From Confluentibacter flavum (GTDB lineage Bacteria; Bacteroidota; Bacteroidia; Flavobacteriales; Flavobacteriaceae), in NCBI RefSeq assembly GCF_002843175.1, contig NZ_PJEO01000052.1, positions 87,418-151,417 on the forward strand: a stretch of 64,000 bases of DNA, read 5' to 3'. Below the pieces are notes generated by a model. It worked only from the letters and a program-made list of their open reading frames with translations, did no database searches and had not been told where the DNA came from. This document shows, in pieces, positions 24,980 to 60,085 of this stretch. Position 1 is the first letter of the stretch. The number at the start of each line of letters is the position of its first letter. Made by a program: the position numbers and the translations under genes.

Positions 24980-26119
24980 TTAAATCAATTCCTTCAAAAC
25001 ACCAATAACATAATCAATATCTGCTTTGGTATTGTAAATACTAAAAGAAAAGCGAACGGAAGGTTTTTGCAATTGTTCATCATTTAAAATTTCAGCAAGT
25101 ACATGCGAATTCTGTGAACTTCCACTTTGGCAAGCACTTCCTTTGGAACAGGCAATGCCTTTTAAATCCAACTGAAATAAGAACATAGCTGCCTTTGATG
25201 GATTAACGGGTAAACAAACATTTATAAGCGTATAAGTGCTTTTTTTAATATTTCCTGAATTTCCATTGAAAGTAACTTTCGGAATGTCATTGGAAATTTT
25301 ATCAATAAAATACTGTTTCAAATTTGAAATATAAGCACTTTCTTCATCTAAATTTCTGTAGGCCATATCCATAGCCTCAGCAATACCTACAATATTATGG
25401 ATACTCTCTGTCCCTGCCCTAAGGCCTCTTTCTTGCTCGCCACCAAAAATCAAAGGTTTTAATCCTGAATTTTTTCTAACAAAAGCAAAACCAACACCCT
25501 TTGGTCCATGAAATTTATGGGCACTAGCCGCTAAAAAATCAACTTGAATATCTTGTAAATCCAATTTATAATGTCCAACAGATTGAACGGTATCGGTGTG
25601 AAAAAAAGCCTCATTAGTTTTACACAATGTAACAACACGTTTCAAATCCAAAACATTGCCAATTTCATTATTTATATGCATTAAGCTAACTAAAGTCTTG
25701 CTCTCTGTTTTTAATAATGTTTCTAAATGTAAATAATCAATATCGCCGTTTGGTTCTATATCTACATAGCTAACAGACATTATATATTCTTTGTCTAGTT
25801 GCTCTATAGTATGTAAAACCGCGTGATGTTCAATTTTCGAAGTAATGATGTGGGTAACACCTAAATCTCTCACGGCACTTCTTAAAATTAAATTGTTGGC
25901 TTCAGTACCTCCAGAAGTAAATACAATCTCACTAGCAGAAACATTTAAGTAACTGGCAATTCTCTTCCTATATTTTTCAATAATTGATTTAGATGACCTA
26001 CCAAAACTATGTGATGATGAGGGATTTCCATAATTATTTTTCATGATGTTAGTCATCTCATTGATAACTTCATCCCGAATTTGTGTCGTCGCTGCGTTGT
26101 CTAAATAAACGTGTTTCAT
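24980..26119 (-). CDS. Cysteine desulfurase (NifS/IscS class)
   Basis: A 379-residue PLP enzyme that takes sulfur from cysteine for Fe-S clusters and thio-modifications. The PLP lysine is K202 in ASAHKFHGPKG; the His stacking on PLP lies in SKIEHHAVLHT; the persulfide Cys is C330 in CSKGSACQSGS on the long flexible loop of group I enzymes. Start ATG at 26119, with a full consensus promoter upstream (26137-26166). No isc scaffold gene is adjacent. It may also supply sulfur to thiolation enzymes; any link to the PP-loop NRPS 24 kb away is speculative. Confidence 0.93.
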   Translation of the reverse strand: MKHVYLDNAATTQIRDEVINEMTNIMKNNYGNPSSSHSFGRSSKSIIEKYRKRIASYLNVSASEIVFTSGGTEANNLILRSAVRDLGVTHIITSKIEHHAVLHTIEQLDKEYIMSVSYVDIEPNGDIDYLHLETLLKTESKTLVSLMHINNEIGNVLDLKRVVTLCKTNEAFFHTDTVQSVGHYKLDLQDIQVDFLAASAHKFHGPKGVGFAFVRKNSGLKPLIFGGEQERGLRAGTESIHNIVGIAEAMDMAYRNLDEESAYISNLKQYFIDKISNDIPKVTFNGNSGNIKKSTYTLINVCLPVNPSKAAMFLFQLDLKGIACSKGSACQSGSSQNSHVLAEILNDEQLQKPSVRFSFSIYNTKADIDYVIGVLKELI

Positions 26120-47064: not shown

Positions 47065-49329
47065 TTAAAACCTAACTGATATTTTTCCTCTCAAAAAAAA
47101 TGGGGTTCCTGGGGTAAAATGTATTTCTTCAACTGAATTTGGCTCATTGAACAATCTACTTTCTGTGGCGAATTGTGTTTCGTTCCATTCGGTGTCGAAT
47201 ACATTTTCCACAATCAATCCAAAAGTCCAATTTTTATAATTGTAATTTAAATTGAAATCGGTTACAAAATAGCCTTCTGCCACAATGGAATTATCTTCGT
47301 TTGCTGGCCTATCTTTAATGTAGCGGTAATTAATCCCACCCGAAAAATTACATAAATTACGAAAACTAATACCCCCTGCTGACGCTAAATCTGGAGCAAG
47401 CGGAATGTAATCTTGTCCACTTGGCTCTTCAACACTTCTAGCATGTGAATAATTAACATCGCCATTCACAAACAACCAATCCGTCAACTGATACTGCAAT
47501 CCAAAATCAGCACCATAGCGTTGCGTTTTTCCGCTAGGCTCAACAATACCAGCATCTCCAACATACACAAACTCTTGCTGCAAAAACAAACTCCATAAAG
47601 CGGCATTAATAACCAATCGCTCTTTGGGTTTTAAAACAACACCAAAATCTGCCCCAAAAGCGGTTGGGAGTATTTTTTTTCCATTATTGGCAGTCACTAC
47701 CCTACTATCGTTTGAGTGGTAACCCAGCCCTGTTTTAGCATAAAATTGAGTCTTGGGAGAAGCCGCATAAATAATATTAAACTTTGGGCTTAACAGTACT
47801 TTGTTCTCACTTTTATTATCGTAAGTGAGTGTCAATAAATTTTCGTAATCAAAAGTAAAATAGTCTAGACGCAACCCTGGATTGAAGGTCCATTTATTTT
47901 TTTTATACGTTACATTGGCAAACGAAAAACAATTTAATTCATCCACATTACCATATGCCAATCGTTCCAAAATAGTTTGTCTGTTTAAGGTTCTGGATAA
48001 TTGAACATTATTAACATCATCATATCTAAACCCAATTCCCAACTCATATTTTAACTGCGCATCATGGTCTCCAAGATGAAATGAATGTTCGTAGGCTGCT
48101 TTTGCACCAATAATGGTTCTATCTTCTTTTTGCTGTATTTGATCGCCATTTACTGGGTCTTCCAAAAAGAATGTGAAATTTGAAAATAATTCAAAATCGT
48201 ACTTAGACACGTAGGCTGAAGATTTTACTACAGAATGTTCGTCTATTTGCTTTTTATGGTTTATCCACATATTACTTCGGCTGGTATTACCGCCTTCGGT
48301 ATCATCAATAGCTCCAAAACGACCTATTAATCCGCTCTCAACTGCACGTACTGGAATTTGCCCAGAAGCATCCCATTTGCTCTGAAAATGGGAAATCCCC
48401 ATATCAAACTCTTGGTTTAGGTAATTATTGAAATTGTAACGACCCATGATATTAAAACGGTTAAAATTTTGAGGCGATTCAAAAACACCCTCGGTCAATA
48501 CCATTTCTGAGGCCAAATAGGCACTACTATTTTTTTCTTCCAGAACTTTAATCATACTCAAAGCACGTAAAGTGTTATATTGTCCAGCTTCTAGAGATAT
48601 CAAGCTTTCGTCGATGGTTTTTTTGGTATTGATATCCACATAACCTGCCGTATTGAAATTTCCTTTATCGGCGTAATAAGATCCTTTTCCGAAATCGATG
48701 TTATTAATGGTCTCAGGAATGATGAAGTGCATATCGGCATAACCTTGTCCATGAGCGTGCGAAACCATATTTACGGGCATACCATCCACATCAATGGCAA
48801 TATCTGTACCATGGTCTATATCAAAACCCCTCAAAAAAATCTGTTCTGCTTTACCCCCACCGGCATGCTGACCAATTATCAACCCCGGTATTTTACGTAG
48901 TATCTCTTGGGACGATTTTACTGGACTTGTTTTTAAATCTACATTTAAAAAGGTGCTTAACACATTAACCTTAGAAACTATCAATACTTGATCTAAGGAT
49001 ACAGAGGATACTTTTAAAATAATATTTTCAGTATTATCTAAATGCTTTTCACTAATAACAAGTTCTTGGTTTTCAAAACCTAAACTATAAAAATAAATTT
49101 TGTCACCAACTGAAATATCATCTAACTCAAAATAACCCGCCACGTTGGTATATGTGTAAGTACCCGTAGTTTTATTATAAACGCCAACACCTTGCAAGGG
49201 TTTGCTAGTTTCTTCTGAAACTACTGTTCCGCTAAGCTCATGAGCTTGCATGCTTATAAAAGTGAAAACCAATAAAATGAAACATAAGACATACTTTGGA
49301 ACTTTCTTTTGGTTGCTTGGTTGTGTCAT
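47065..49329 (-). CDS. TonB-dependent receptor of the NRPS cluster
   Basis: A 754-residue receptor from the ATG at 49329 (MTQPSNQKKVPKYVLCFILL), giving a signal peptide ending in MQAHE. A TTG at 49350 would overlap the NRPS 1 stop and is less likely. Carboxypeptidase-like domain (about 32-110, ELSGTVVSEETSKPLQGV), a plug with FLRGFDIDHGTDIAIDVDG and the His-rich MVSHAHGQGYADMHF, and a barrel ending in FFLRGKISVRF. The His-rich plug and the presence of a HupE-like permease in the cluster suggest transport of a metal or a metal chelate. It is the third gene of the leftward operon. Confidence 0.9.
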   Translation of the reverse strand: MTQPSNQKKVPKYVLCFILLVFTFISMQAHELSGTVVSEETSKPLQGVGVYNKTTGTYTYTNVAGYFELDDISVGDKIYFYSLGFENQELVISEKHLDNTENIILKVSSVSLDQVLIVSKVNVLSTFLNVDLKTSPVKSSQEILRKIPGLIIGQHAGGGKAEQIFLRGFDIDHGTDIAIDVDGMPVNMVSHAHGQGYADMHFIIPETINNIDFGKGSYYADKGNFNTAGYVDINTKKTIDESLISLEAGQYNTLRALSMIKVLEEKNSSAYLASEMVLTEGVFESPQNFNRFNIMGRYNFNNYLNQEFDMGISHFQSKWDASGQIPVRAVESGLIGRFGAIDDTEGGNTSRSNMWINHKKQIDEHSVVKSSAYVSKYDFELFSNFTFFLEDPVNGDQIQQKEDRTIIGAKAAYEHSFHLGDHDAQLKYELGIGFRYDDVNNVQLSRTLNRQTILERLAYGNVDELNCFSFANVTYKKNKWTFNPGLRLDYFTFDYENLLTLTYDNKSENKVLLSPKFNIIYAASPKTQFYAKTGLGYHSNDSRVVTANNGKKILPTAFGADFGVVLKPKERLVINAALWSLFLQQEFVYVGDAGIVEPSGKTQRYGADFGLQYQLTDWLFVNGDVNYSHARSVEEPSGQDYIPLAPDLASAGGISFRNLCNFSGGINYRYIKDRPANEDNSIVAEGYFVTDFNLNYNYKNWTFGLIVENVFDTEWNETQFATESRLFNEPNSVEEIHFTPGTPFFLRGKISVRF

Positions 49330-49336
49330 AGCTTTT

Positions 49337-52300
49337 TTATAATGATTCAAGAATTCTTTGTTCTATATGGCTGGCATATGCTTCAATTGTAGGTAAATTA
49401 AAAATTTTATTTAAAGGAATTTCCATTCCCAATTCGTCATTAATTCTAGATGTTACCCTTATAGCTGCTAGTGAATGCCCTCCTAAGACTATAAAATTAT
49501 CGTGAACACTAATTTTATCCAACCTTAAAACGTCTCGCCATACATTATAAACCAGTTCTTCAATATCGTTTCTTGGAGACACATACGAAGTTTGTATGTC
49601 ATTGGTTTTATTTGCAGCATACTTAATTTCTTTTAGAACTTTCTTATCTACTTTGCCGTTTTTTGTTAGAGGCATTTCGTCTAAATGCTTAAAAGCGGAA
49701 GGTATCATATAGGCTGGTACTTTCTTTAACAAGTGCGCCTTTAAATCTTTTGTTGAAACAGCATCCTTAGCCGTATAATATGCGACTAGCTTTTCATCGT
49801 TCTCAAAAAGGTTATCAGAATCCTCATAACCAATTTCGTTCATAATACGTTTTACTTCAGTCTCGTCTATATATTCATTAATTTCTTCAAGACTTTCATC
49901 CCGGGTTTTATGCCCTAATCGCACATCCCAACTGTAAGGGAACGAATAATTGCTATAGCCTTTTTCTTTTTTATGAACATAAATCCCTACTTGGTTTATT
50001 AAACAGTTGGTAGAACGTCCTGTATCTGTTGGTCTAATCCAGCCCACTGTGTCTTCTAAATATCGAAGCATTTCCTCGAGACTCACATCAGAATATCTAT
50101 AAAAATCCACGAACTGGACTTTATCAAAAACAGCATCATTCTCAAATAAGGAAACATCTAACAACTCTTTAACGGCATCCTCTTCTCTATGATAAAGTTT
50201 TCTAACTTCTAATATAGTGTCATCAATTTTAGTTACATCCAAATTTTCTTCCCAGAATAATTCTTCTGTCAATCGTGTTTCAAAAAACTGACCTCTGGAC
50301 AAGCCTGTAACAATAAAAGGAATTTGCTTTTCCATGGCAATTTTTGTGCTCAATGTGTAAATGGTTTTAAAACAACCATTACAAACATTTTTGTGTCTTT
50401 TAAGACTGTCCACAAAAATTTGGTTCATATGATTCGTTGAGTCATAAATATGATCAACTCCCAACTTCTCAACAATTCTATTTATATTATTTTTTGCTTG
50501 TTGTGATATGTAGCCGTTATCTAAGGTAAATGCTAAAACTTTAAGTCCCATGCCTACTAATTGCGCCAAAATGTAGGTGCTATCCTTACCTCCGCTCAAA
50601 AGTGTCAAACAGTCATAACTTGGGTTATTAGTCTTGTTCTTGGTTAAGATTGATTTTAGCTCTGCTTCTGTTCTAAAATACTTTTGTACTTTATCTTCGT
50701 AATTTTTAAAGGCATTACATAAATGGCATACGCCTTGATCATCGAAATCTATTTCTGGATAATTTGAGGGTAATCCACAATTTGTACAATTTATCACCTT
50801 CTCTACTTCTTCTGTCCTTTTTTTATTGTCTACCAAAACAACTGCACAAGTATCAATCCCTTTAAAATCCATTAAATTGGATTCTATATCGGTTAATTCT
50901 ATCCTGTAGCCCCTTAACTTGATTTGCTCATCTACCCTTCCTAAATATTCATAATCCCCATCTTCATTAATTCTAGCTAAATCGCCTGTATGGTACATTT
51001 TTGCCCCTGTTACAAAAGGATTATCCACAAACTTTGCCTTAGTTAATTCATCTAAATCCAAATAGCCATTTGCTAGACTTGCCCCACTTAAATACAGTTC
51101 TCCCACAACACCATGAGGTACTAGATTTTTATGACTATCTAAAATATAGGCATGCATATTTTTAATAGGGATACCTATAGGGATAGAAGCACCTGTATGT
51201 AATGCTGCATTAAACTCACTTACTATGCAGCCAACAGTCGCTTCAGTAGGGCCATATTCATTAAAGATCCTGATGTTATTGCCAAAAGCAGTGGTGATTG
51301 ATTTACCTAGTTGTACTTTAAAATCTTCACCGCCAACTATCATTGTTTTTATAGTAGAGTTTGTCAAGTCTCTTCCCTTAAAAAAGGACAAATGTGATGG
51401 CGTTAGCTTAATGGTATTAACCAAATTATCTCCCAATAATTGCAATAAGGATATATCGGGTCCAAATGCATTTTCCTTATAAACAATCAATCTGCCGCCA
51501 TTTAATAAAGGTAAAATGGTGGACGTAATGGTAAGATCGAAGCCTATAGATGTAAATAACGGAAGAATGGATTTACTATCAATGCCATAATAACCCTTGG
51601 CCCAAAGCAAATAATTAGACAAGGCACTATGTGATATTATAACACCTTTAGGATTACCCGTAGAACCAGATGTATATAGAATATATGCAATCGAATTAGC
51701 CGTTAGTTTAATATTCAAATTATCAACCGATAGGTTTGAACTCTCAGCTATAACCGTTTTTAAATCCAGTACAGGTAATTCAATATTCAATACATTAGTT
51801 TTCAGTGGCAATTCAGTTAAAACCATGCTGGCTCCTGAATTAGAAAGCATAAAATGAACACGATCTTTAGGTTGGTCAGCAGCGATAAGTATAAAAGTTG
51901 CTCTTAATTTCATTATGGCGAGCAAACCAACAATATACTCTATACTTCGGTAGGTATAGAGTGCTATTTTATTTTCTGAAACAACACCTTCCTTTTTTAA
52001 ATAAGTTGCAAATTGATTCGCTTTTTTATTTAAACCATTATAAGTGAGTGTTTCAGGTCCACATTGCAATGCAACACTATTAGGGTTAGATTTAACCATG
52101 GTTTCAAAAAGCTCTAAGATAGAACTGTATGGTGAGTCGAAATTTAATTTGGGAAGTAAAAAAGCGTCTGTTTCCTGTTGCGTTATAAGATTTGGTTTTG
52201 ATATTTCCTGATCAATATCCTGAATGAATGCATCTAGTATATTTGAGAAATGATGCATTACCAAACTCGATAAAATACCCTCATTTAAATCAAAAACAAC

Positions 52301-53482
52301 CTTGATTTTACCTGTTGCTTCAAAATCGTAAATATGGCACCTCATTTGGTGGGCGGCATCATTATGATTTGGATGAATCCAATCCACATTTGTTTCCAAC
52401 CCATCAAAATTTGAAAAGCTAGAAGTTATATAATTAAAAATAACATTAAAACTTCTGCTTACCTTTGCTGAAGTAGCTCCTGTTACAGCATGTTTTAAAA
52501 AGGCATTACTCTCGATTTTAACGCGTTGTAGCAATGTATAAAATGTATCATCCTCGTCTAAATCAACAGTTAAAGGGAATACTTCAATAAATAGCCCTGC
52601 CGTTTTTTTAAACTTATTTGTAGTCCTGTTATGTATAGGGGCACCAATAGCTATATTATTTTGACCACTTATTCTATATAGATACGAAAATATAACCGTA
52701 GCAAAAATATTAAATAGGGTGAGTTCTTGTGTCCATGATTTAATATCACTTTGCTTAGCTAAATCCCTTAATTTTTGTGATTGTTCAAAATCTAAATTTA
52801 ATACAACCCTATTGGATTTAGTTGTTGGATTGAGAGGCTGTTTTACGCCATATAATGAGGGTGCTTTCGTAAATAAATCAACTTTTCTCTCCCAATATTT
52901 TTTTTCTTCGGTATTGTTTTTTGCTTGGTCTATTTCGTATGCTACATAATCGGAATAGTTAAACAATTCATTTAAGTCTGATGGTTTTTTATGATTTTTG
53001 ATTTGCCCATATATTTTAGACATAGTATCAAAAAGAATTACAGAACTTGAAGCATCTGTTATTAAATGATGCACATTTAAAAACCAGATATAGTGTTGGG
53101 AATCCACTTTTATTAAAACGGAATCGAATAATGGCTTAGAAAAATCAAAAGTTATTTCACTTCGTTTTTGTAACCATTCTTCGACAGGAAATACATTTGA
53201 CTCAGAAGTAAAATCCAGCATTTCAAAAGCATAATCATAGTCATCCATTATCTGCTGATAAGGGGTATTTTGATTTTCTATGAAAACAGTTCTTAAAACA
53301 TCTATCTGCTTAATCATATCAGAGAATGCTTTGGCGAATACACCCTCATCTATCTCTTCATGTATATGATAGGCATAGGGTACATTATATAAAGGGACAT
53401 TAGGATGTAATTTTTGTCCGAGCCATAAGGATAGTTGACTTTGTGTCAAGGCATACAACTTCGATTTTGATTGGTCTATCAT
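49337..53482 (-). CDS. NRPS 1: C-A-T with a PP-loop domain inserted in the adenylation domain
   Basis: A 1381-residue non-ribosomal peptide synthetase. Condensation domain 1-430 with HHLITDA (138-144). Adenylation domain from about 455: A3 YTSGSTGNPKG (603-613), A5 NEYGPTEAT (741-749), A7 YHTGDL (830-835), A8 around LRGYRIELTDIE (857-868), A10 PLTKNGKVDKK (271 residues from the end of the insert's partner strand, at 1271-1281). Between A8 and A10, residues about 896-1228 are an insert: C899/C902 and C919/C922 (zinc-knuckle-like), PP-loop SGGKDS (963-968), and CNGC (C1034/C1037). Carrier domain with GGHSL at 1334-1338. No thioesterase. Pocket residues by alignment to GrsA read D-L-T-K-I-G-E-V-G-K, close to the asparagine code. 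It starts two bases after the carrier-protein gene. Confidence 0.93.
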   Translation of the reverse strand: MIDQSKSKLYALTQSQLSLWLGQKLHPNVPLYNVPYAYHIHEEIDEGVFAKAFSDMIKQIDVLRTVFIENQNTPYQQIMDDYDYAFEMLDFTSESNVFPVEEWLQKRSEITFDFSKPLFDSVLIKVDSQHYIWFLNVHHLITDASSSVILFDTMSKIYGQIKNHKKPSDLNELFNYSDYVAYEIDQAKNNTEEKKYWERKVDLFTKAPSLYGVKQPLNPTTKSNRVVLNLDFEQSQKLRDLAKQSDIKSWTQELTLFNIFATVIFSYLYRISGQNNIAIGAPIHNRTTNKFKKTAGLFIEVFPLTVDLDEDDTFYTLLQRVKIESNAFLKHAVTGATSAKVSRSFNVIFNYITSSFSNFDGLETNVDWIHPNHNDAAHQMRCHIYDFEATGKIKVVFDLNEGILSSLVMHHFSNILDAFIQDIDQEISKPNLITQQETDAFLLPKLNFDSPYSSILELFETMVKSNPNSVALQCGPETLTYNGLNKKANQFATYLKKEGVVSENKIALYTYRSIEYIVGLLAIMKLRATFILIAADQPKDRVHFMLSNSGASMVLTELPLKTNVLNIELPVLDLKTVIAESSNLSVDNLNIKLTANSIAYILYTSGSTGNPKGVIISHSALSNYLLWAKGYYGIDSKSILPLFTSIGFDLTITSTILPLLNGGRLIVYKENAFGPDISLLQLLGDNLVNTIKLTPSHLSFFKGRDLTNSTIKTMIVGGEDFKVQLGKSITTAFGNNIRIFNEYGPTEATVGCIVSEFNAALHTGASIPIGIPIKNMHAYILDSHKNLVPHGVVGELYLSGASLANGYLDLDELTKAKFVDNPFVTGAKMYHTGDLARINEDGDYEYLGRVDEQIKLRGYRIELTDIESNLMDFKGIDTCAVVLVDNKKRTEEVEKVINCTNCGLPSNYPEIDFDDQGVCHLCNAFKNYEDKVQKYFRTEAELKSILTKNKTNNPSYDCLTLLSGGKDSTYILAQLVGMGLKVLAFTLDNGYISQQAKNNINRIVEKLGVDHIYDSTNHMNQIFVDSLKRHKNVCNGCFKTIYTLSTKIAMEKQIPFIVTGLSRGQFFETRLTEELFWEENLDVTKIDDTILEVRKLYHREEDAVKELLDVSLFENDAVFDKVQFVDFYRYSDVSLEEMLRYLEDTVGWIRPTDTGRSTNCLINQVGIYVHKKEKGYSNYSFPYSWDVRLGHKTRDESLEEINEYIDETEVKRIMNEIGYEDSDNLFENDEKLVAYYTAKDAVSTKDLKAHLLKKVPAYMIPSAFKHLDEMPLTKNGKVDKKVLKEIKYAANKTNDIQTSYVSPRNDIEELVYNVWRDVLRLDKISVHDNFIVLGGHSLAAIRVTSRINDELGMEIPLNKIFNLPTIEAYASHIEQRILESL

Positions 53483-53484
53483 AA

Positions 53485-53733
53485 CTATGATTTTAAGCTA
53501 TTTTTTAAAATATAGTTACTCATGTTATTAATGGTCATGAAATTATCGAAAGTCATGTCTTCAAAAGGTATTTCCATATTAAATCGTTTTTCAATAAAAC
53601 GCACAATACGCATGATGCCCATAGAATCTATAAGTCCAGTACTCAGAAGGTCTTCGTCGTGACTCAAATTATCTAATTTTTCCTCTATAATCTCTTGTTT
53701 GATAAAGGTTTCCAAAGCGTCATTTATTTCCAT
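53485..53733 (-). CDS. Stand-alone acyl/peptidyl carrier protein
   Basis: An 82-residue carrier protein with the phosphopantetheine attachment Ser in GLIDSMGIMRIV and four-helix-bundle length. It is the first gene of the leftward operon, two bases before NRPS 1. It could carry a starter acyl or an amino acid for the condensation domain of NRPS 1; no separate ligase to load it is in the cluster, so a chromosomal one or an NRPS adenylation domain acting in trans would be needed. Confidence 0.9.
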   Translation of the reverse strand: MEINDALETFIKQEIIEEKLDNLSHDEDLLSTGLIDSMGIMRIVRFIEKRFNMEIPFEDMTFDNFMTINNMSNYILKNSLKS

Positions 53734-54061
53734 AATAAATTTATATTCATTAAAAATGATTACATGACTAAAATTTAGGAAAATAGAAGCTGATAGGTAT
53801 TATAATATCAATAACATATACCTACTAAATACAACATATAGCAATTTTTTATATTTAATCTTTTTACCTAGCAAGGTAAAGATATATGAATATTGTTTAT
53901 CACTAAAATAGTAATTCCGTAATTCAACGATTAAATATTTGTATTGAACGAAAAAAATAATATTGAATATTATGAATCTTCTAATATTTACGATATTCAT
54001 TAAAAAAAATCGCTAAAACACACTTTTAACAATTAGTGTGTTATACAATAAACTAACCGCT
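53734..54061. promoter_or_regulatory. Divergent control region of the NRPS cluster
   Basis: The 328 bases between the carrier-protein gene and the HupE-like gene hold no frame and are over 75% A+T by eye. It must carry both operon promoters; no exact TAnnTTTG is present, the nearest being AATATTTG around 53935. Two inverted repeats stand out: TTTACC-TAGCAA-GGTAAA near 53867-53880, and AACACACT (54017-54024) with AGTGTGTT (54035-54042), the latter 20 bases before the HupE start. They could be operators or leader hairpins. Confidence 0.6.
54017..54042 (+). promoter_or_regulatory. Inverted repeat ahead of the HupE-like gene
   Basis: A perfect 8-bp inverted repeat with a 10-base spacer, ending 19 bases before the ATG. 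It has no T run, so it is unlikely to be a terminator; an operator or a leader hairpin is possible. Confidence 0.5.
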
Positions 54062-55282
54062 ATGAATAAAAAATTCCTGTGCCTAGTATTTATTGCTCTA
54101 ATTTTAACCACTGTTAACAAAGTATTTGGACATAATCCCGATAATAGTCTCATGTATCTTAGAATTTATGAGAACGCCAATATTGAAGGAACCATACATG
54201 TTAACATAAATGAATTAAATGATGTTTTAGGACTTCATTTAAATAAAAAAACGTCTGTTGAGGACGTTGAACCATATGCCAATAAGATTAGGGACTACTT
54301 AATTAAAAACACCGCTTTTTCAACTGGCAGTAAGATCTATAAAATGGTATTTACCAATGAAATAAGCATATTGAGTGTTGGATATGGTGATTTTGTAATA
54401 TTCCATTTTTATTTAGAAAATTCTAATGTTTTACCTGACGAAATAGATGTTGTTTTTAAAATTTTTATTGAAGAAGAGCCTAACCACCAAAATTTATTAG
54501 GGCAAGAGTATAACTGGAAAGCAGGCTTGATAAATAACGAAAAAATGATTGACTTATATTTTAGTCACAACGACTGGAAAAAAACATTATCGCTTAAAGA
54601 AAGATCTATCATGAAAGGTTTTATGGCGATGATCAGACAAGGTATTTGGCATATCTGGATTGGCATTGATCACATTTTATTTATAATAGCGCTTATTTTA
54701 CCTGCTGTTGTACGACGGAAAAAAGCTGGTATTTGGGGCTGGGAACCTGTTGATAAGTTTAAACCTGCTTTTATCTACATCATTAAAATCATTACTTTTT
54801 TCACAATTGCACATACCATTACATTAAGTTTAGCATCTTTAAATATAATAGCTCTGCCATCAAGGATTGTTGAATCCATTATTGCCCTTTCTATTGGATT
54901 GGCAGCCTATCACAATATTAGGCCCATTTTTAAGGGAAAAGATTGGCTTATTGCTTTTGTATTCGGATTGTTTCATGGATTTGGATTTGCAAGTGTTTTA
55001 GGAGAACTAGGTTTTAATGGTGAAAATCTTGCCTTAACACTATTAGGTTTTAATATTGGTGTTGAAATTGGGCAATTAGCTATAATAACAGCTATTTTTC
55101 CTCTATTATATGTCATTAGAAACCTTAAATTATATCCCAAGTTTTTAGTTTACCTGTCTGCCCTACTCATAATTATTTCTCTTTATTGGGTAGTAGAACG
55201 TGCTTTTGATATTGATCTTCCTATTGATAACTACATTAGAAGGTACGGTTATCAATTTGCCGTTTGGTTAGGTCTGAGATAA
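54062..55282 (+). CDS. HupE/UreJ-type membrane protein with a periplasmic domain
   Basis: A 406-residue protein from the ATG at 54062 (MNKKFLCLVFIALILTTVNK), with a signal peptide ending near FGHNP. Residues 25-185 are an extracytoplasmic domain of mixed structure. Residues about 190-370 have six or seven membrane segments with the HupE/UreJ signatures IWHIWIGIDHILF, FFTIAHTITLSLA and LFHGFGFASVL; the His and Asp of these motifs are where related Ni/Co permeases bind metal. The N-terminal domain is characteristic of the HupE_UreJ_2 branch. It is the first gene of the rightward operon, 10 bases before NRPS 2. Metal specificity cannot be told. Confidence 0.88.
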   Translation: MNKKFLCLVFIALILTTVNKVFGHNPDNSLMYLRIYENANIEGTIHVNINELNDVLGLHLNKKTSVEDVEPYANKIRDYLIKNTAFSTGSKIYKMVFTNEISILSVGYGDFVIFHFYLENSNVLPDEIDVVFKIFIEEEPNHQNLLGQEYNWKAGLINNEKMIDLYFSHNDWKKTLSLKERSIMKGFMAMIRQGIWHIWIGIDHILFIIALILPAVVRRKKAGIWGWEPVDKFKPAFIYIIKIITFFTIAHTITLSLASLNIIALPSRIVESIIALSIGLAAYHNIRPIFKGKDWLIAFVFGLFHGFGFASVLGELGFNGENLALTLLGFNIGVEIGQLAIITAIFPLLYVIRNLKLYPKFLVYLSALLIIISLYWVVERAFDIDLPIDNYIRRYGYQFAVWLGLR

Positions 55283-55292
55283 AAAGAAAGAT

Positions 55293-58200
55293 ATGGAAAA
55301 GGAATTGAAGCAAGAATCTTTATTAGATAAATGGAAAAATAGAGAGCAAAAAACAACGAGCATAAAACCTATAGAAAAGGCGCCTCCTGGAGTTAAAATA
55401 CCACTTTCTTACGGACAAAAAAGGCTGTTTTTTTTACAACAATTGTATCCCGATAATCCATTCTACAATTATTCGGAAACGTATACTTTTATAGGTGAAT
55501 TAGTTAAAGAACATCTTATTGAAAGTTTAAAAAAAGTTTACAATGATCATGATATCTTAAGAACCACCTATCATGCCGATGGAGATACCGTTTTCCAAGA
55601 AGTTGATGCGTCTGCCAAGATGGAAATTTCAACACATGATTTAAGTAAATTAAATGAGTTAGATGCTGAAATAGAATGTCATAAAATCATGCTAGCTGAT
55701 GCCACAAAATATTTTGAGCTGGATAAAGGCCCTTTAGTTCGTGCTTCATTAATTAAAATAAATGACCTAAAACATATACTTCAAATCACCTTACACCATA
55801 TAGTAACGGATAAATGGTCCATGCAAATTTTCAGAGCTCATGTAGCTCATTATTACAGACAATTTAATAAGGATATTCGGCTTTCAGAATTAAAAAACCA
55901 ATTACAATATACTGATTATGCCTATTGGTTAGAAAATCAAGAAATAAATAACGACCATCTTAATTATTGGAAAAATAAACTTTCTGGTGAAATTCCCAAT
56001 TTAAATTTACCTACAGATTACTCCAGGCCCAAACATCCATCATTTAAAGGTGCTGCTTCGTATACTCAAGTTTTTAATAAGGATTTATCAGGTAAACTCC
56101 TAAAGCTTTCAAAAAAATTAGAAACTACGCCTTTTAATTTGATGCTTTCCGTTTATTACATAATGCTATATAAATATAGCGGTCAAACAGATATTTTGAT
56201 AGGGACGCCTGTAACAAATAGAAATCAAAAAGCACTTGAAGATCTTATTGGTTTTTTTAATGACACTATTGTTTTGCGAACCAACCTTTCCCCTTCTATG
56301 ACGTTTATGGATTTTGTAGGGAACGTACGTACAAACACGTTGGAAGCTTTCTCCAACAAAGATGTTCCTTTTGATATTTTGGTTAGAGAACTAAAAACAA
56401 ATAGGAACTTATCCATAAACCCATTTTTTCAAGTGATGTTTCTATATCACTCAGTTCCTGAAAATCCTTTTTTTGATGATAATTTAAGTTTAACGCACAC
56501 ATGGTTTGATTCTAAGGTCGCGAAATTCGATTTAACCATCTATATATCAGAAGAACATGGTTTATTTTCATCGACCTTTGAATATGCTTCCGATTTATTT
56601 GAAGAAGAAACCATAAATCGATTTCAAGATTATTTTAAACTGCTTTTAGAAGGCATCGTTTCTAATCCCAACATAGTTATAGCCGATATTCCTATCATAA
56701 ACGAAAAGGAAAAAACATTCCTTTGTAATCAAAAAAATGAATTTAGCAACCATCTCCTTGAAGAACAAGCCATACATAAAATCATTGAACAAATAGCTTC
56801 TAAATACCCAGAAAATAAAGCCGTTACCTTTGGTAATGTGTCCATGACTTATAAAGAATTGGACCATAAAGCAAGTTTAGTGGCCCAAAGTCTATTAAAA
56901 AATATTACTACAAGAAACGAAGTCATAGGCCTATGTTTAGATCGATCCATAAACATGATTGTTGGCATGCTTGGTATTTTAAAAGCTGGTTGTGCCTACC
57001 TACCAATTGACGCAGATTACCCAAAGGAACGCGTGAATTTTATGCTAAAAGATTCCAACGTAAAAATCTTATTAACTCAAAAAAATATTACTATTCATGA
57101 TACTGGTTTAGATATTTCTACCCTTTTCATTGAAAACTTAACTGATACTATTAATGAGCTGAACACTCTTGATTATCCTCAAACGAGTGAAGACGATTTA
57201 GCCTATATCATTTATACTTCAGGTAGTACAGGACAGCCAAAAGGAGTCCCTATTACCCATAAAAGCATTATTAATTCTACCACTGGAAGAATTTATTTTT
57301 ATAACCATAATCCATCAGCTTTTTTACTATTATCCTCCATATCATTTGATAGCTCGAAGGCAGGCATTTTCTGGACGCTTTGTACGGGTGGTAATTTAGT
57401 TATTAGTGAAAAACGCTTGGAACAGGATATTGATAAAATAGGTAATATTTTAAAAGATCATTCCATTAGTCATACACTCATGCTTCCATCATTATACAAA
57501 ACTATTTTAGAATATACCAGCCCAGATAGCTTTGGAACTTTAAAAACAGTTATCGTTGCTGGTGAAGCTTGTACTGAATCACTTTGCGATTATCATTTTA
57601 ATAAACTGCCTAAAGTAAAATTATATAATGAATACGGCCCCACAGAAGCCACCGTATGGTGCATCGCGTATGAAATAACAAAAGCAACTATTAAATCTTC
57701 AATACCAATAGGTAGACCCGTCGCTGGTGCAAACATTTATTTACTGGATGAAAAACTAAATTTAGTCCCAAAAGGTGCCATTGGGGAAATTTATATTGGA
57801 GGCACGGGACTTTCAAAAGGATATTTAAATAGACCCGAATTAACACGACAGGTATTTATTACAAATCCTTTCAATACTGAAGAAAAGCTCTATAAAACAG
57901 GTGATTTAGGAAAATTTCGAAATGACGGTAATATTGTATTCTTAGGAAGAAAAGATCAACAAGTTAAAATACGGGGTTTTCGTGTTGAATTAGAGGAAAT
58001 AGAACAAACATTGATGGACAGCATCATGTTTCATGGGGTTGTATTGAATTTAGAAAACAACCATCTTGACAATGAATCTGAATCTTCATCTGAGAAACCT
58101 AAACAATTAGTCGCTTATGTTATTGCAAAGACGCATTATAATAAAGCAGCATTAAAAAGTTACTTAAAAAAGCGTATTCCAAATTATATGATTCCAGCTA

Positions 58201-59318
58201 AAATAATAGAGCTAGAAGCATTTCCTAAACTACCAAATGGTAAAATTGACAAAAAAGCCCTCTCAATTTTAAAATACGCTCATTCATCTGCCAATCAAAA
58301 AGATAGTAATGTAGAACTTCCAAAGAATGAAACAGAACAAGTTATGCTTCAAATATGGCAAGACGTATTAAATATAGATGCCATAAGTACGAATGATAAT
58401 TTTTTTGAAATTGGTGGTGATTCTATTTTAAGCATTCAAATTATTGCTAAAGCACGGAAAATGGGGATGATGATTTCACCCAATCAATTATTCGAATTTC
58501 AAAATATAAAAGATTTATCTGAATATATTGATGTTAACAAAAATACCAATGAGTCGTGGGATTACGTGGCTCCACTGAGGAAAGAAGGATATAAAAAACC
58601 GTTGTTTTGTATACATGCTGGTGGCGGACATGTTTTTTTCTATAATCTTTTAACAGAATATATAGATCCTGAGCGACCAATATATGCCATACAACCATCG
58701 GGCCTTTATGGCAGCGAAGCCATGCATAAAAATGTTCAAGAAATGACTGATGATTATATAGAGTCCATTACTAAAATTCAGCCTGATGGTCCGTATAATG
58801 TGGTTGTGTACTGTTTAAGTGTTGCTATTGGTCATGAAATGGCGATACAAATGAAAAAAAGAGGCATGGATTTAAATCTGATTGTAATGGATACAATGGC
58901 AAATCCTTGGAAACTAAATACCAAAGAAAGAAAGCTAATCAGAGCTAAAAATTTTTACAAAAGATTCAAAAAAAAACCATTCCAAACCATCAAGCTTATT
59001 ATTGTTGACAGAATACCCAGTTTAAGTTTAAAAATAAAAAAATTACTGAGTATTAATAAGAAAGATCATTTTCAAAAAGTAAAGGACAATCTTGTCAACA
59101 TATGCGTTGATTATATTTGGAAACCATACCCAGTAAAAATATCATTAATACTTACTGAGAAACATGAAGAAAGTCTGAACGAAGAAACCATTAAATCATG
59201 GAAAAATCTTGCTTCAGATGGCGTAGAAATACTTTTTACAAAAGGTAACCATCGAACTTTATTTGAGAAGCCTGATATTGCGTTTGTGGCAAAAACCATT
59301 GAAAAGTGTCTAAAATAA
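55293..59318 (+). CDS. NRPS 2: C-A-T-TE with a cysteine thioesterase
   Basis: A 1341-residue synthetase. Condensation domain about 35-460 with HHIVTDKW (168-175). Adenylation domain about 485-1000: A3 YTSGSTGQPKG (from about 640), A5 NEYGPTEATVW, A7 YKTGDLGKF, A8 RGFRVELEEIE, A10 PNGKIDKKAL; uninterrupted. Pocket residues by GrsA alignment read D-S-A-M-I-A-E-V-W-K, a code I cannot assign. Carrier domain with GGDSILS, S1044. Thioesterase about 1085-1341: where most have GYSFGG this reads VYCLSV with C1174 at the nucleophile position; Asp in IVMDTMANP; His in TKGNHRTLFEKP. It is the terminal module, which should release the product. PPTase follows. Confidence 0.94.
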   Translation: MEKELKQESLLDKWKNREQKTTSIKPIEKAPPGVKIPLSYGQKRLFFLQQLYPDNPFYNYSETYTFIGELVKEHLIESLKKVYNDHDILRTTYHADGDTVFQEVDASAKMEISTHDLSKLNELDAEIECHKIMLADATKYFELDKGPLVRASLIKINDLKHILQITLHHIVTDKWSMQIFRAHVAHYYRQFNKDIRLSELKNQLQYTDYAYWLENQEINNDHLNYWKNKLSGEIPNLNLPTDYSRPKHPSFKGAASYTQVFNKDLSGKLLKLSKKLETTPFNLMLSVYYIMLYKYSGQTDILIGTPVTNRNQKALEDLIGFFNDTIVLRTNLSPSMTFMDFVGNVRTNTLEAFSNKDVPFDILVRELKTNRNLSINPFFQVMFLYHSVPENPFFDDNLSLTHTWFDSKVAKFDLTIYISEEHGLFSSTFEYASDLFEEETINRFQDYFKLLLEGIVSNPNIVIADIPIINEKEKTFLCNQKNEFSNHLLEEQAIHKIIEQIASKYPENKAVTFGNVSMTYKELDHKASLVAQSLLKNITTRNEVIGLCLDRSINMIVGMLGILKAGCAYLPIDADYPKERVNFMLKDSNVKILLTQKNITIHDTGLDISTLFIENLTDTINELNTLDYPQTSEDDLAYIIYTSGSTGQPKGVPITHKSIINSTTGRIYFYNHNPSAFLLLSSISFDSSKAGIFWTLCTGGNLVISEKRLEQDIDKIGNILKDHSISHTLMLPSLYKTILEYTSPDSFGTLKTVIVAGEACTESLCDYHFNKLPKVKLYNEYGPTEATVWCIAYEITKATIKSSIPIGRPVAGANIYLLDEKLNLVPKGAIGEIYIGGTGLSKGYLNRPELTRQVFITNPFNTEEKLYKTGDLGKFRNDGNIVFLGRKDQQVKIRGFRVELEEIEQTLMDSIMFHGVVLNLENNHLDNESESSSEKPKQLVAYVIAKTHYNKAALKSYLKKRIPNYMIPAKIIELEAFPKLPNGKIDKKALSILKYAHSSANQKDSNVELPKNETEQVMLQIWQDVLNIDAISTNDNFFEIGGDSILSIQIIAKARKMGMMISPNQLFEFQNIKDLSEYIDVNKNTNESWDYVAPLRKEGYKKPLFCIHAGGGHVFFYNLLTEYIDPERPIYAIQPSGLYGSEAMHKNVQEMTDDYIESITKIQPDGPYNVVVYCLSVAIGHEMAIQMKKRGMDLNLIVMDTMANPWKLNTKERKLIRAKNFYKRFKKKPFQTIKLIIVDRIPSLSLKIKKLLSINKKDHFQKVKDNLVNICVDYIWKPYPVKISLILTEKHEESLNEETIKSWKNLASDGVEILFTKGNHRTLFEKPDIAFVAKTIEKCLK

Positions 59319-59335
59319 CCTTGTTAACATCATTT

Positions 59336-60085
59336 ATGCAACCATCAAATACAAAATCTTTCAATCTTTCTTCAGGCATGGTTGATGTATGGTATATTGA
59401 TGTCAATAATTGTAAAAAACAAATACCATATTATACCTCACTACTTTCTACGGATGAAAAGCTAAAAGCGGATAAATTCAAGTTTATAAATGATAAAAAT
59501 ATATTTATTGTAGCTAGAGGTGTTTTAAGAGTTTTACTAGCTAAGTATCTATCAATTAATCCGAAAAAAGTGGAGTTTAAATATGGTGATTTTGGAAAAC
59601 CAGAAACGATTAATAATCAGTCCATAAACTTCAACATATCCCATTCTGGCAAGATGGCTATTTTTGGTTTTACTAAAAGCCATGACATTGGTGTGGATAT
59701 TGAAGAAATAAAAAACAACTTCGATGTATTAGATATTGCGAATAACTTTTTTTCAAAAAAGGAAATTGAGTTTCTAAATAATTTCCCAACAGAAGATCAA
59801 ACTGAAGGTTTTTATAGATGTTGGACTCGGAAAGAGTCCTTTATTAAGGCAAAATCTATAGGGCTTTCGTATCCGCTAGACTCGTTTTCTGTTTCAATAG
59901 ATTCCCATGAAAGTGCTGAATTATTAGAAACACAATGGGATATAAAGGAAAAACATAATTGGACATTATTTTCTTTTAGTCCTTATGAAAATTATATTGG
60001 TGCTATATCAGTAAAAGGAAATGTTAAAGCTGTTAAATACTTTAATTTCAATAAAACAGATATTAATTTATTGCAGACCATTTAA
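59336..60085 (+). CDS. Sfp-type 4'-phosphopantetheinyl transferase
   Basis: A 249-residue transferase that activates the carrier domains of the cluster. Signature residues: GVDIEEIKNN (metal-binding Asp and Glu) and WTRKESFIKAKSIGL. The ATG at 59336 (MQPSNTKSFNL) is chosen; a GTG at 59306 overlaps the NRPS 2 end and is possible. It ends within the 3' end of the convergent hydrolase gene, overlapping by 18 bases. A dedicated PPTase beside the synthetases supports a self-contained pathway. Confidence 0.92.
   Translation: MQPSNTKSFNLSSGMVDVWYIDVNNCKKQIPYYTSLLSTDEKLKADKFKFINDKNIFIVARGVLRVLLAKYLSINPKKVEFKYGDFGKPETINNQSINFNISHSGKMAIFGFTKSHDIGVDIEEIKNNFDVLDIANNFFSKKEIEFLNNFPTEDQTEGFYRCWTRKESFIKAKSIGLSYPLDSFSVSIDSHESAELLETQWDIKEKHNWTLFSFSPYENYIGAISVKGNVKAVKYFNFNKTDINLLQTI

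Follow-up and report, generated by a model that had tools for sequence, protein, structure and literature searches.

A putative amide dehydratase/aminomutase-type PP-loop domain nested in an adenylation domain of a Confluentibacter flavum nonribosomal peptide synthetase

A 64,000-nt stretch of the Confluentibacter flavum genome (assembly GCF_002843175.1, contig NZ_PJEO01000052.1, positions 87,418 to 151,417, forward strand; hereafter the window) encodes a nonribosomal peptide synthetase (NRPS), NRPS1, with a PP-loop domain inserted into its adenylation (A) domain. The insert likely belongs to the amide dehydratase/aminomutase (AMDH) kind; its module is an in-line one, and the gene cluster around it is widespread and uncharacterised. 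NRPS1 further comprises a condensation (C) domain and a peptidyl carrier protein (PCP, or T domain). Its features, numbered from the first letter of the window, are as follows.

49337..53482, minus strand: NRPS1, 1381 amino acids (aa), C-A-(insert, probably AMDH type)-A C-terminal subdomain-PCP; single open frame, Pfam
52163..53461, minus strand: condensation domain, residues 8-440, HHLITDA motif; Pfam
50807..52108, minus strand: adenylation core, residues 459-892, code DLTKIGEVG, taken to specify asparagine; Pfam and hand-mapped code
49799..50797, minus strand: inserted PP-loop domain, residues 896-1228, probably AMDH type; NCBIfam, fold and sequence comparison
50774..50788, minus strand: first CxxC, predicted zinc knuckle, C899 and C902; both Cys in 247/247 inserts
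50717..50728, minus strand: second CxxC, predicted zinc knuckle, C919 (246/247 inserts) and C922 (247/247)
50579..50596, minus strand: SGGKDS PP-loop, residues 963-968; motif reading and insert alignment
50372..50383, minus strand: CNGC, C1034 and C1037, triad cysteines one and two; 247/247 inserts, 359/359 proteins
50003..50005, minus strand: C1160, triad cysteine three; 247/247 inserts, 355/355 ungapped rows, 4 gapped
49652..49795, minus strand: A-domain C-terminal subdomain, residues 1230-1277, NGKVDKK motif at 1275-1281; Pfam and motif
49364..49555, minus strand: peptidyl carrier protein, residues 1310-1373, LGGHSL; Pfam and motif

Pfam placed Condensation at residues 8-440 of NRPS1, AMP-binding at 459-808, AMP-binding_C at 1230-1277 and PP-binding at 1310-1373. 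The NCBIfam model TIGR03573 (WbuX, N-acetyl sugar amidotransferase) matched residues 898-1215 (model positions 3-326 of 344). This match and the single 1381-aa frame bore out the original prediction, made from the letters of the window, of a PP-loop domain at about residues 896-1228 inside the A domain. The motifs also lay where it had put them (C899/C902, C919/C922, SGGKDS at 963-968, CNGC at 1034-1037), and C1160 was a further near-invariant Cys that it had missed. The TIGR03573 score was 138.5 bits (E 3.5e-40) in whole NRPS1 and 143.9 bits for the insert alone, neither of which reached the curated cut-off of 203.2 bits. In an alignment to the uninterrupted NRPS2 of the same cluster, the insert was bounded by the a8 region (GRVDEQIKLRGYRIEL, residues 848-863) and the KLVAYY strand at 1231. 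The a8-a9 loop is described as the usual site of nested domains in A domains (PMC8949500). NRPS1 has an interrupted A domain in this sense, with the A fold kept around a domain nested at a8-a9. In the interrupted A domain of TioS (A-M-A, 5wmm) the nested domain is a methyltransferase, whereas in NRPS1 it is a PP-loop ATPase. A frameshift, gene fusion or assembly artefact was ruled out by the one open frame and the identical architecture across many genomes.

A protein search with NRPS1 residues 890-1235 against targets of NRPS length gave E <= 1e-3 in 2099 of 4561 candidates, of which the best 120 were listed. A GTDB scan for the insert confirmed at least 535 loci, of which 80 were kept (81 with the window). 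The search for further A domains with the insert, suggested with the original prediction, was answered: 24 of 299 Flavobacteriaceae genomes, including that of the window, carried it, always in frames of 1373-1417 aa, and all 80 fetched loci held it in NRPS-type open reading frames (ORFs). These ORFs (548-1989 aa) and that of the window clustered with NRPSs; those of L059 and L070 had no readable A core. By title, the kept loci came from Flavobacteriaceae and other Bacteroidota, cyanobacteria, Anaerolineae, Acidimicrobiia and other actinobacteria, Gemmatimonadetes, Thermoanaerobaculia and Pirellulaceae. A scan of 395 Bacteroidota genomes gave matches at E <= 1e-3 in 62 of them. The close insert type was found only in G000 (1386 aa) and G203 (1347 aa), the remaining matches being weaker (best 1.4e-21) and in frames of 275-680 aa.

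Conservation was assessed in 247 inserts; protein searches had supplied 167 of them and the loci 80, with some proteins possibly represented twice. Invariant positions were C899, C902, C922, S963, G965, K966, D967, S968, C1034, C1037, K1039, G1060, E1068, H1098, R1156 and C1160, while C919 and G964 had one exception each. A wider set of 359 returned proteins included many fragments. All had C1034 and C1037, and 355 had C1160, with a gap there in the other 4; at ungapped zinc-type positions the cysteine was always kept, save for an R at 899 in one protein and a V at 902 in one. The insert has seven near-invariant cysteines, three of which (C1034, C1037, C1160) form a CXXC...C triad.

Folded alone, the insert was predicted to fold well (pLDDT, the predicted local distance difference test, 91.5). 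The best solved match of this model was the N-acetyl sugar amidotransferase (NASAT) 8wex. Nitrile synthetase ArtA, NAD+ synthetase and [4Fe-4S] LarE tied for second place, and carbapenam synthetase also appeared among the fold matches. The whole-model fold search returned A domains, and the insert was assessed from its own separate model. As a profile against solved structures, the insert had its best sequence match in mmLarE ([4Fe-4S]); ArtA matched weakly by sequence (E 0.075). The claimed kinship with N-acetyl sugar amidotransferases, resembling tRNA thiolases, agreed with the TIGR03573 and 8wex matches. With the NASATs (WbpG, WbuX, LpNASAT 8wex; PMC10607449) the insert shares the fold, the CXXC-Xn-CXXC residues of the zinc site and the PP-loop, but LpNASAT lacks the triad by alignment and the window cluster is not of sugar type. 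HisH/HisF ammonia-supply genes, usual though not universal NASAT neighbours, matched in 0 of 81 loci (blastp, E 1e-5, two HisH and two HisF probes). Membership as an ordinary NASAT was dropped on the sub-threshold TIGR03573 score and the absence of a HisH/HisF match, and retained as a fold. LarE (T. maritima, M. maripaludis), TtuA and NcsA share SGGxDS and CXXC...C with the insert. They differ in that the fold comparison aligns just ~160-195 residues, no sulfur-donor gene was found near the window insert, and the NRPS precedent is dehydration. A [4Fe-4S] cluster is reported to be bound via CXXC-C in T. maritima LarE (PMC9283937) and via three cysteines in TtuA (PMC7138817). ArtA (9lei, 9leh; auranthine), described as catalysing the amide-to-nitrile step alone (PMC13060819), is free-standing, whereas the window domain is nested in an NRPS.

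A-domain codes were read from nine positions mapped by hand from motifs. Of the 81 loci, 79 had a readable NRPS1-type code, and all of these gave DLTKIGEVG or a close variant. We take DLTK-type codes to specify asparagine and DAQD-type codes glutamine. On this assignment, the 153 readable codes among the 359 returned proteins comprised 123 Asn-type, 30 Gln-type and no others. Since every readable host code was Asn- or Gln-type, the side-chain carboxamide is a likelier target of the insert than the carboxyl carbonyl of the bound amino acid, which the original prediction had named.

That prediction had also held that no characterised NRPS bears such an insert. A precedent exists: the AMDH domain of CysH, from cystobactamid biosynthesis, was characterised in vitro, and AlbIV, from albicidin biosynthesis, is proposed to act alike (PMC7966384, PMC8949500). 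CysH is described as an A-AMDH-T module with a preference for Asn. When ATP and Mg were supplied, the Asn on its carrier lost 18 Da, interpreted as formation of beta-cyano-L-alanine, and CysH without AMDH gave no such loss; no sulfur or nitrogen donor is listed for the dehydration buffer. Together with CysJ, a partner hydroxylating Asn, CysH yielded isoasparagine-type linkers in vivo. The AlbIV domain is 69% identical to the CysH AMDH, with a proposed dehydratase role. The authors reported an SGGKD motif and homologs all within Asn-coded A domains, spread over many clusters not linked to a product; in 2021 there was no structural template, and purified CysH was dark brown (all PMC7966384).

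Compared by description, the CysH and AlbIV domains and the NRPS1 insert are alike in being SGGKD domains of ~340 aa (~38 kDa) that, in a module activating Asn, separate the A core from the T domain. NRPS1 has the insert in this position, SGGKDS at 963-968 and a code of what we take to be Asn type. CysH and AlbIV differ in that each is a stand-alone A-AMDH-T module loading the assembly line in trans, whereas NRPS1 is an in-line C-A-AMDH-T module, and their clusters differ from that of the window. As a proxy, CysH-like proteins were searched for with a divergent AMDH as the query (333 matches, 120 listed, 119 domains scored). One of them, P0344 (937 aa, presumably Asn-coded), had AMP-binding, QueC-type and PP-binding matches by Pfam, which is the A-insert-T architecture of CysH. 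Over 325 residues it shared 52% identity with the window insert, and the two fell in the same unresolved basal group of the tree. In this tree, a 100/100 branch separated all 64 AMDH-type rows from three class-B NASAT-like rows (classes A, B and other were defined here for 18 fetched rows outside NRPSs). Assigned from position and length only, the architectures of the 119 scored relatives among the matches listed were 82 without a preceding A core, 22 stand-alone A-insert-T, 10 A-insert-T-thioesterase or other, and 5 C-A-insert.

Some of the 82 relatives bore an AMP-binding_C label. On a Streptomyces plasmid (NZ_CP108680.1; L128, 13062-17112), an AMDH-type domain was fused to a condensation domain and adjoined a complete A-PCP gene, the code of which (DARHASLMT) was neither Asn- nor Gln-type. 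The label 'split A domain' for the 82 was wrong for L128, where Pfam showed an AMDH-C protein and a complete A-PCP gene; AMDH-C is the better name for this type. The 30 AMDH-type A domains with a code we take as Gln-type (DAQDxGxVD, DPQDLGLVD) were among P0317-P0359. The CysH account (PMC7966384) is not known to mention a Gln-coded case.

We consider it probable that the insert is an AMDH-type domain catalysing ATP-driven nitrile formation from the side-chain amide of carrier-bound Asn, with a beta-cyanoalanine residue as the predicted product. The CysH precedent, the Asn/Gln-type codes of all readable hosts and the Asn-coded A-insert-T relative at 52% identity argue for a nitrile rather than a thioamide or amidine. 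By its code, the A domain would load Asn onto its own PCP, and the PP-loop would convert the side-chain amide to an AMP-imidate by adenylating its oxygen, in line with proposals for QueC, ArtA and PesC. AMP would then depart and the nitrile form, a step shown for CysH and extended here by analogy. C899, C902, C919 and C922 would bind a structural zinc as in 8wex. C1034, C1037 and C1160 would hold a [4Fe-4S] cluster adjoining the nucleotide; the free iron of this cluster could bind the amide and polarise it. The beta-cyanoalanine residue would pass into a short peptide completed by NRPS2. The original prediction of an exchange of carbonyl O for S or N thus survives in part: activation of the carbonyl oxygen is still predicted, but since CysH dehydrates Asn with ATP and Mg and no listed S or N donor, the evidence favours a nitrile over a thioamide, thioacid or amide.

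By analogy with LarE, the triad could hold a [4Fe-4S] cluster, and such a cluster could explain the dark-brown colour of purified CysH. Several observations weigh against the AMDH reading of the insert as a whole. Gross et al. reported seeking a CxxCxxxC motif in CysH and finding none, and left the cofactor open (PMC7966384). The link to CysH and AlbIV is drawn from architecture, motif, code and the proxy P0344, and the nitrile activity of C-A-insert-T proteins is a prediction from CysH. In 82 of 119 relatives no A core precedes the domain, unlike in the published AMDH description. NAD+ synthetase, an amide-forming enzyme, equals ArtA and LarE as a fold match, and a single-sequence query puts 8wex above LarE. 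R1156 and K1039 differ between the clade of the window and the remaining AMDH-type groups, so the chemistry may vary. The triad also aligned in 7 of the 18 NASAT-like rows (six class B and L019), and two of these class-B rows stood in HisF-HisH operons; with the triad found beside HisF/HisH, it alone would decide neither Fe-S binding nor chemistry. For the other four class-B rows, HisH was on a different contig (L008, L014, L016) or ~22 kb off (L005). Eight class-A and three other NASAT-like rows had no triad by alignment. Class B grouped nearest the inserts with weak support (80/49).

In the two operon-borne rows, L111 (1694-4225) and L112 (2576-5167), the NASAT-like protein is free-standing, has the triad and shares its operon with HisH and WbuZ/HisF2. 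Set against the triad-less LpNASAT 8wex, they suggest that the NASAT family may have two chemistries.

Triads of this kind serve sulfur transfer in LarE and TtuA, which by analogy leaves a thioamide route. An extra sulfide on the [4Fe-4S] cluster of the triad would attack the Asn AMP-imidate and give thioasparagine, a soft metal ligand. The chemistry of LarE and TtuA (PMC9283937, PMC7138817), the top profile match to [4Fe-4S] LarE, the triad and K1039 in 247/247 window-type inserts and neighbour genes of metal type are consistent with this. However, CysH is reported to yield a nitrile in an ATP/Mg buffer for which no sulfur donor is listed (PMC7966384), three desulfurase-type probes gave one weak match in the 81 loci, and NASAT-kind triad proteins also adjoin HisF/HisH. 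We regard this route as unlikely. It had been the first-favoured reading and was given up in view of the CysH nitrile data, and the triad was dropped as proof of sulfur transfer given its presence in NASAT-like rows.

Still less probable is rearrangement of carrier-bound Asn to isoasparagine, the second CysH activity, for which the in vivo linkers are the precedent (PMC7966384). The CysH route requires hydroxylation by CysJ, and no TauD-family (PF02668) protein was found in the window genome, where other hydroxylase families were not searched for; the E. coli control did match. Aminomutation is therefore not expected. An amidine, formed from the Asn side chain by attack of ammonia on the AMP-imidate as in N-acetyl sugar amidotransferases, is very improbable. 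The full-length TIGR03573 match, 8wex as best fold match and a GAMT-type methyltransferase gene in 5/81 loci, which could methylate an amidine, point to it, against a TIGR03573 score under the cut-off, 0/81 loci with a HisH/HisF match and the nitrile product reported for CysH (PMC7966384). ATP-dependent cyclisation, in which a nitrogen of the growing peptide attacks the activated side-chain amide and closes a ring as with carbapenam synthetase, needs no partner enzyme and has that synthetase among the fold matches, but no characterised insert homolog is known to cyclise and CysH dehydrates an aminoacyl-PCP without any condensation (PMC7966384), which makes it the most improbable of all.

Around NRPS1 the window contained five further cluster genes, with the carrier protein, NRPS1 and the receptor on the minus strand and the others on the plus strand.

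53485..53733, minus strand: stand-alone carrier protein of 82 aa, directly upstream of NRPS1; locus comparison
47065..49350, minus strand: TonB-dependent receptor, overlaps the NRPS1 end; Pfam, relatives in 53/81 loci
54038..55282, plus strand: HupE/UreJ_2 membrane protein; Pfam, relatives in 54/81 loci
55293..59318, plus strand: NRPS2, C-A-PCP-thioesterase, code DSALIAEVW; Pfam and hand-mapped code
59306..60085, plus strand: 4'-phosphopantetheinyl transferase; Pfam, NCBIfam

Across the 81 loci, many of which end at contig ends or at the flank limit, relatives of HupE/UreJ were counted in 54, a stand-alone A domain in 54, TonB receptors in 53, the carrier protein in 52, a PigA/RedW-like dehydrogenase in 34 and an ornithine-cyclodeaminase-like protein in 30, family names being taken from one representative each. 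In 11 long loci judged non-Bacteroidota by title, the counts were 6 for HupE/UreJ, 9 for stand-alone A and 0 for TonB. A Roseovarius plasmid had a similar gene set around a fused NRPS with no annotated TonB gene. In the relatives, the gene set suggests a proline-derived pyrrole starter. Such a starter was rejected for the window, as the dehydrogenase and stand-alone A domain had no close copy in the genome (best 33% and 32% identity). The NRPS2-type code was DSALIAEVW or near in 43/43 domains found; a substrate reading from this code was dropped, no basis for it being found.

In NRPS2 genes of L026, L053, L080, L100 and others, the A domain appeared split at the same hinge, with the core on one gene and the C-terminal subdomain-PCP on the next. 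This was judged by eye except for L080, whose second gene begins with AMP-binding_C and PP-binding (Pfam). The GAMT-type methyltransferase gene (phmmer to 1xcj, E 2.5e-24) lay between the NRPS2 halves in L053, L072 and L080. Between NRPS1 and the TonB gene, 37 of 81 loci (e.g. L022, L028, L055) encoded a conserved His-rich protein of ~155 aa. The one representative scanned had no Pfam match, and the protein was absent from the window, where the NRPS1 and TonB genes overlap. A class-V aminotransferase (24980-26119, minus strand), cysteine desulfurase-like and below the SufS cut-off, lay 23 kb from NRPS1, outside the cluster.

The TonB and HupE/UreJ genes suggest that the peptide of the window cluster may handle a metal. 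The carrier, permease and, in Bacteroidota, receptor genes shared by the fetched loci point to one peptide family, possibly metal-binding. We tentatively extend the proposal, as a possibility with somewhat less than even weight, to AMDH domains as a class of [4Fe-4S] enzymes with a PP-loop amidotransferase fold. A triad-held cluster and ATP would dehydrate Asn/Gln side-chain amides on carriers and feed a conserved, metal-uptake-linked cyanoalanine peptide. Relative to the 2021 CysH paper, and within a literature search not aimed at the name AMDH, the new elements are the fold, the conserved cluster, the relatives of AMDH-C and Gln-coded type, and the triad together with the Fe-S binding predicted from it. 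The AMDH mechanism was open in 2021, with neither a template nor an assigned cofactor and a brown colour to account for; the insert profile supplies a fold, a superfamily and a residue triad for mutation. The AMDH-type domain also flags a large unexplored cluster set, as the confirmed relatives in the genome scan indicate. If the class-wide proposal is true, Fe-S binding would account for the brown CysH, and a PP-loop Fe-S cluster would have a non-redox role in chemistry leading to nitriles, not thioamides. Bacteria from several phyla, marine ones in many cases, would then use the domain to make a conserved peptide that contains cyanoalanine and is linked to the uptake of metal.
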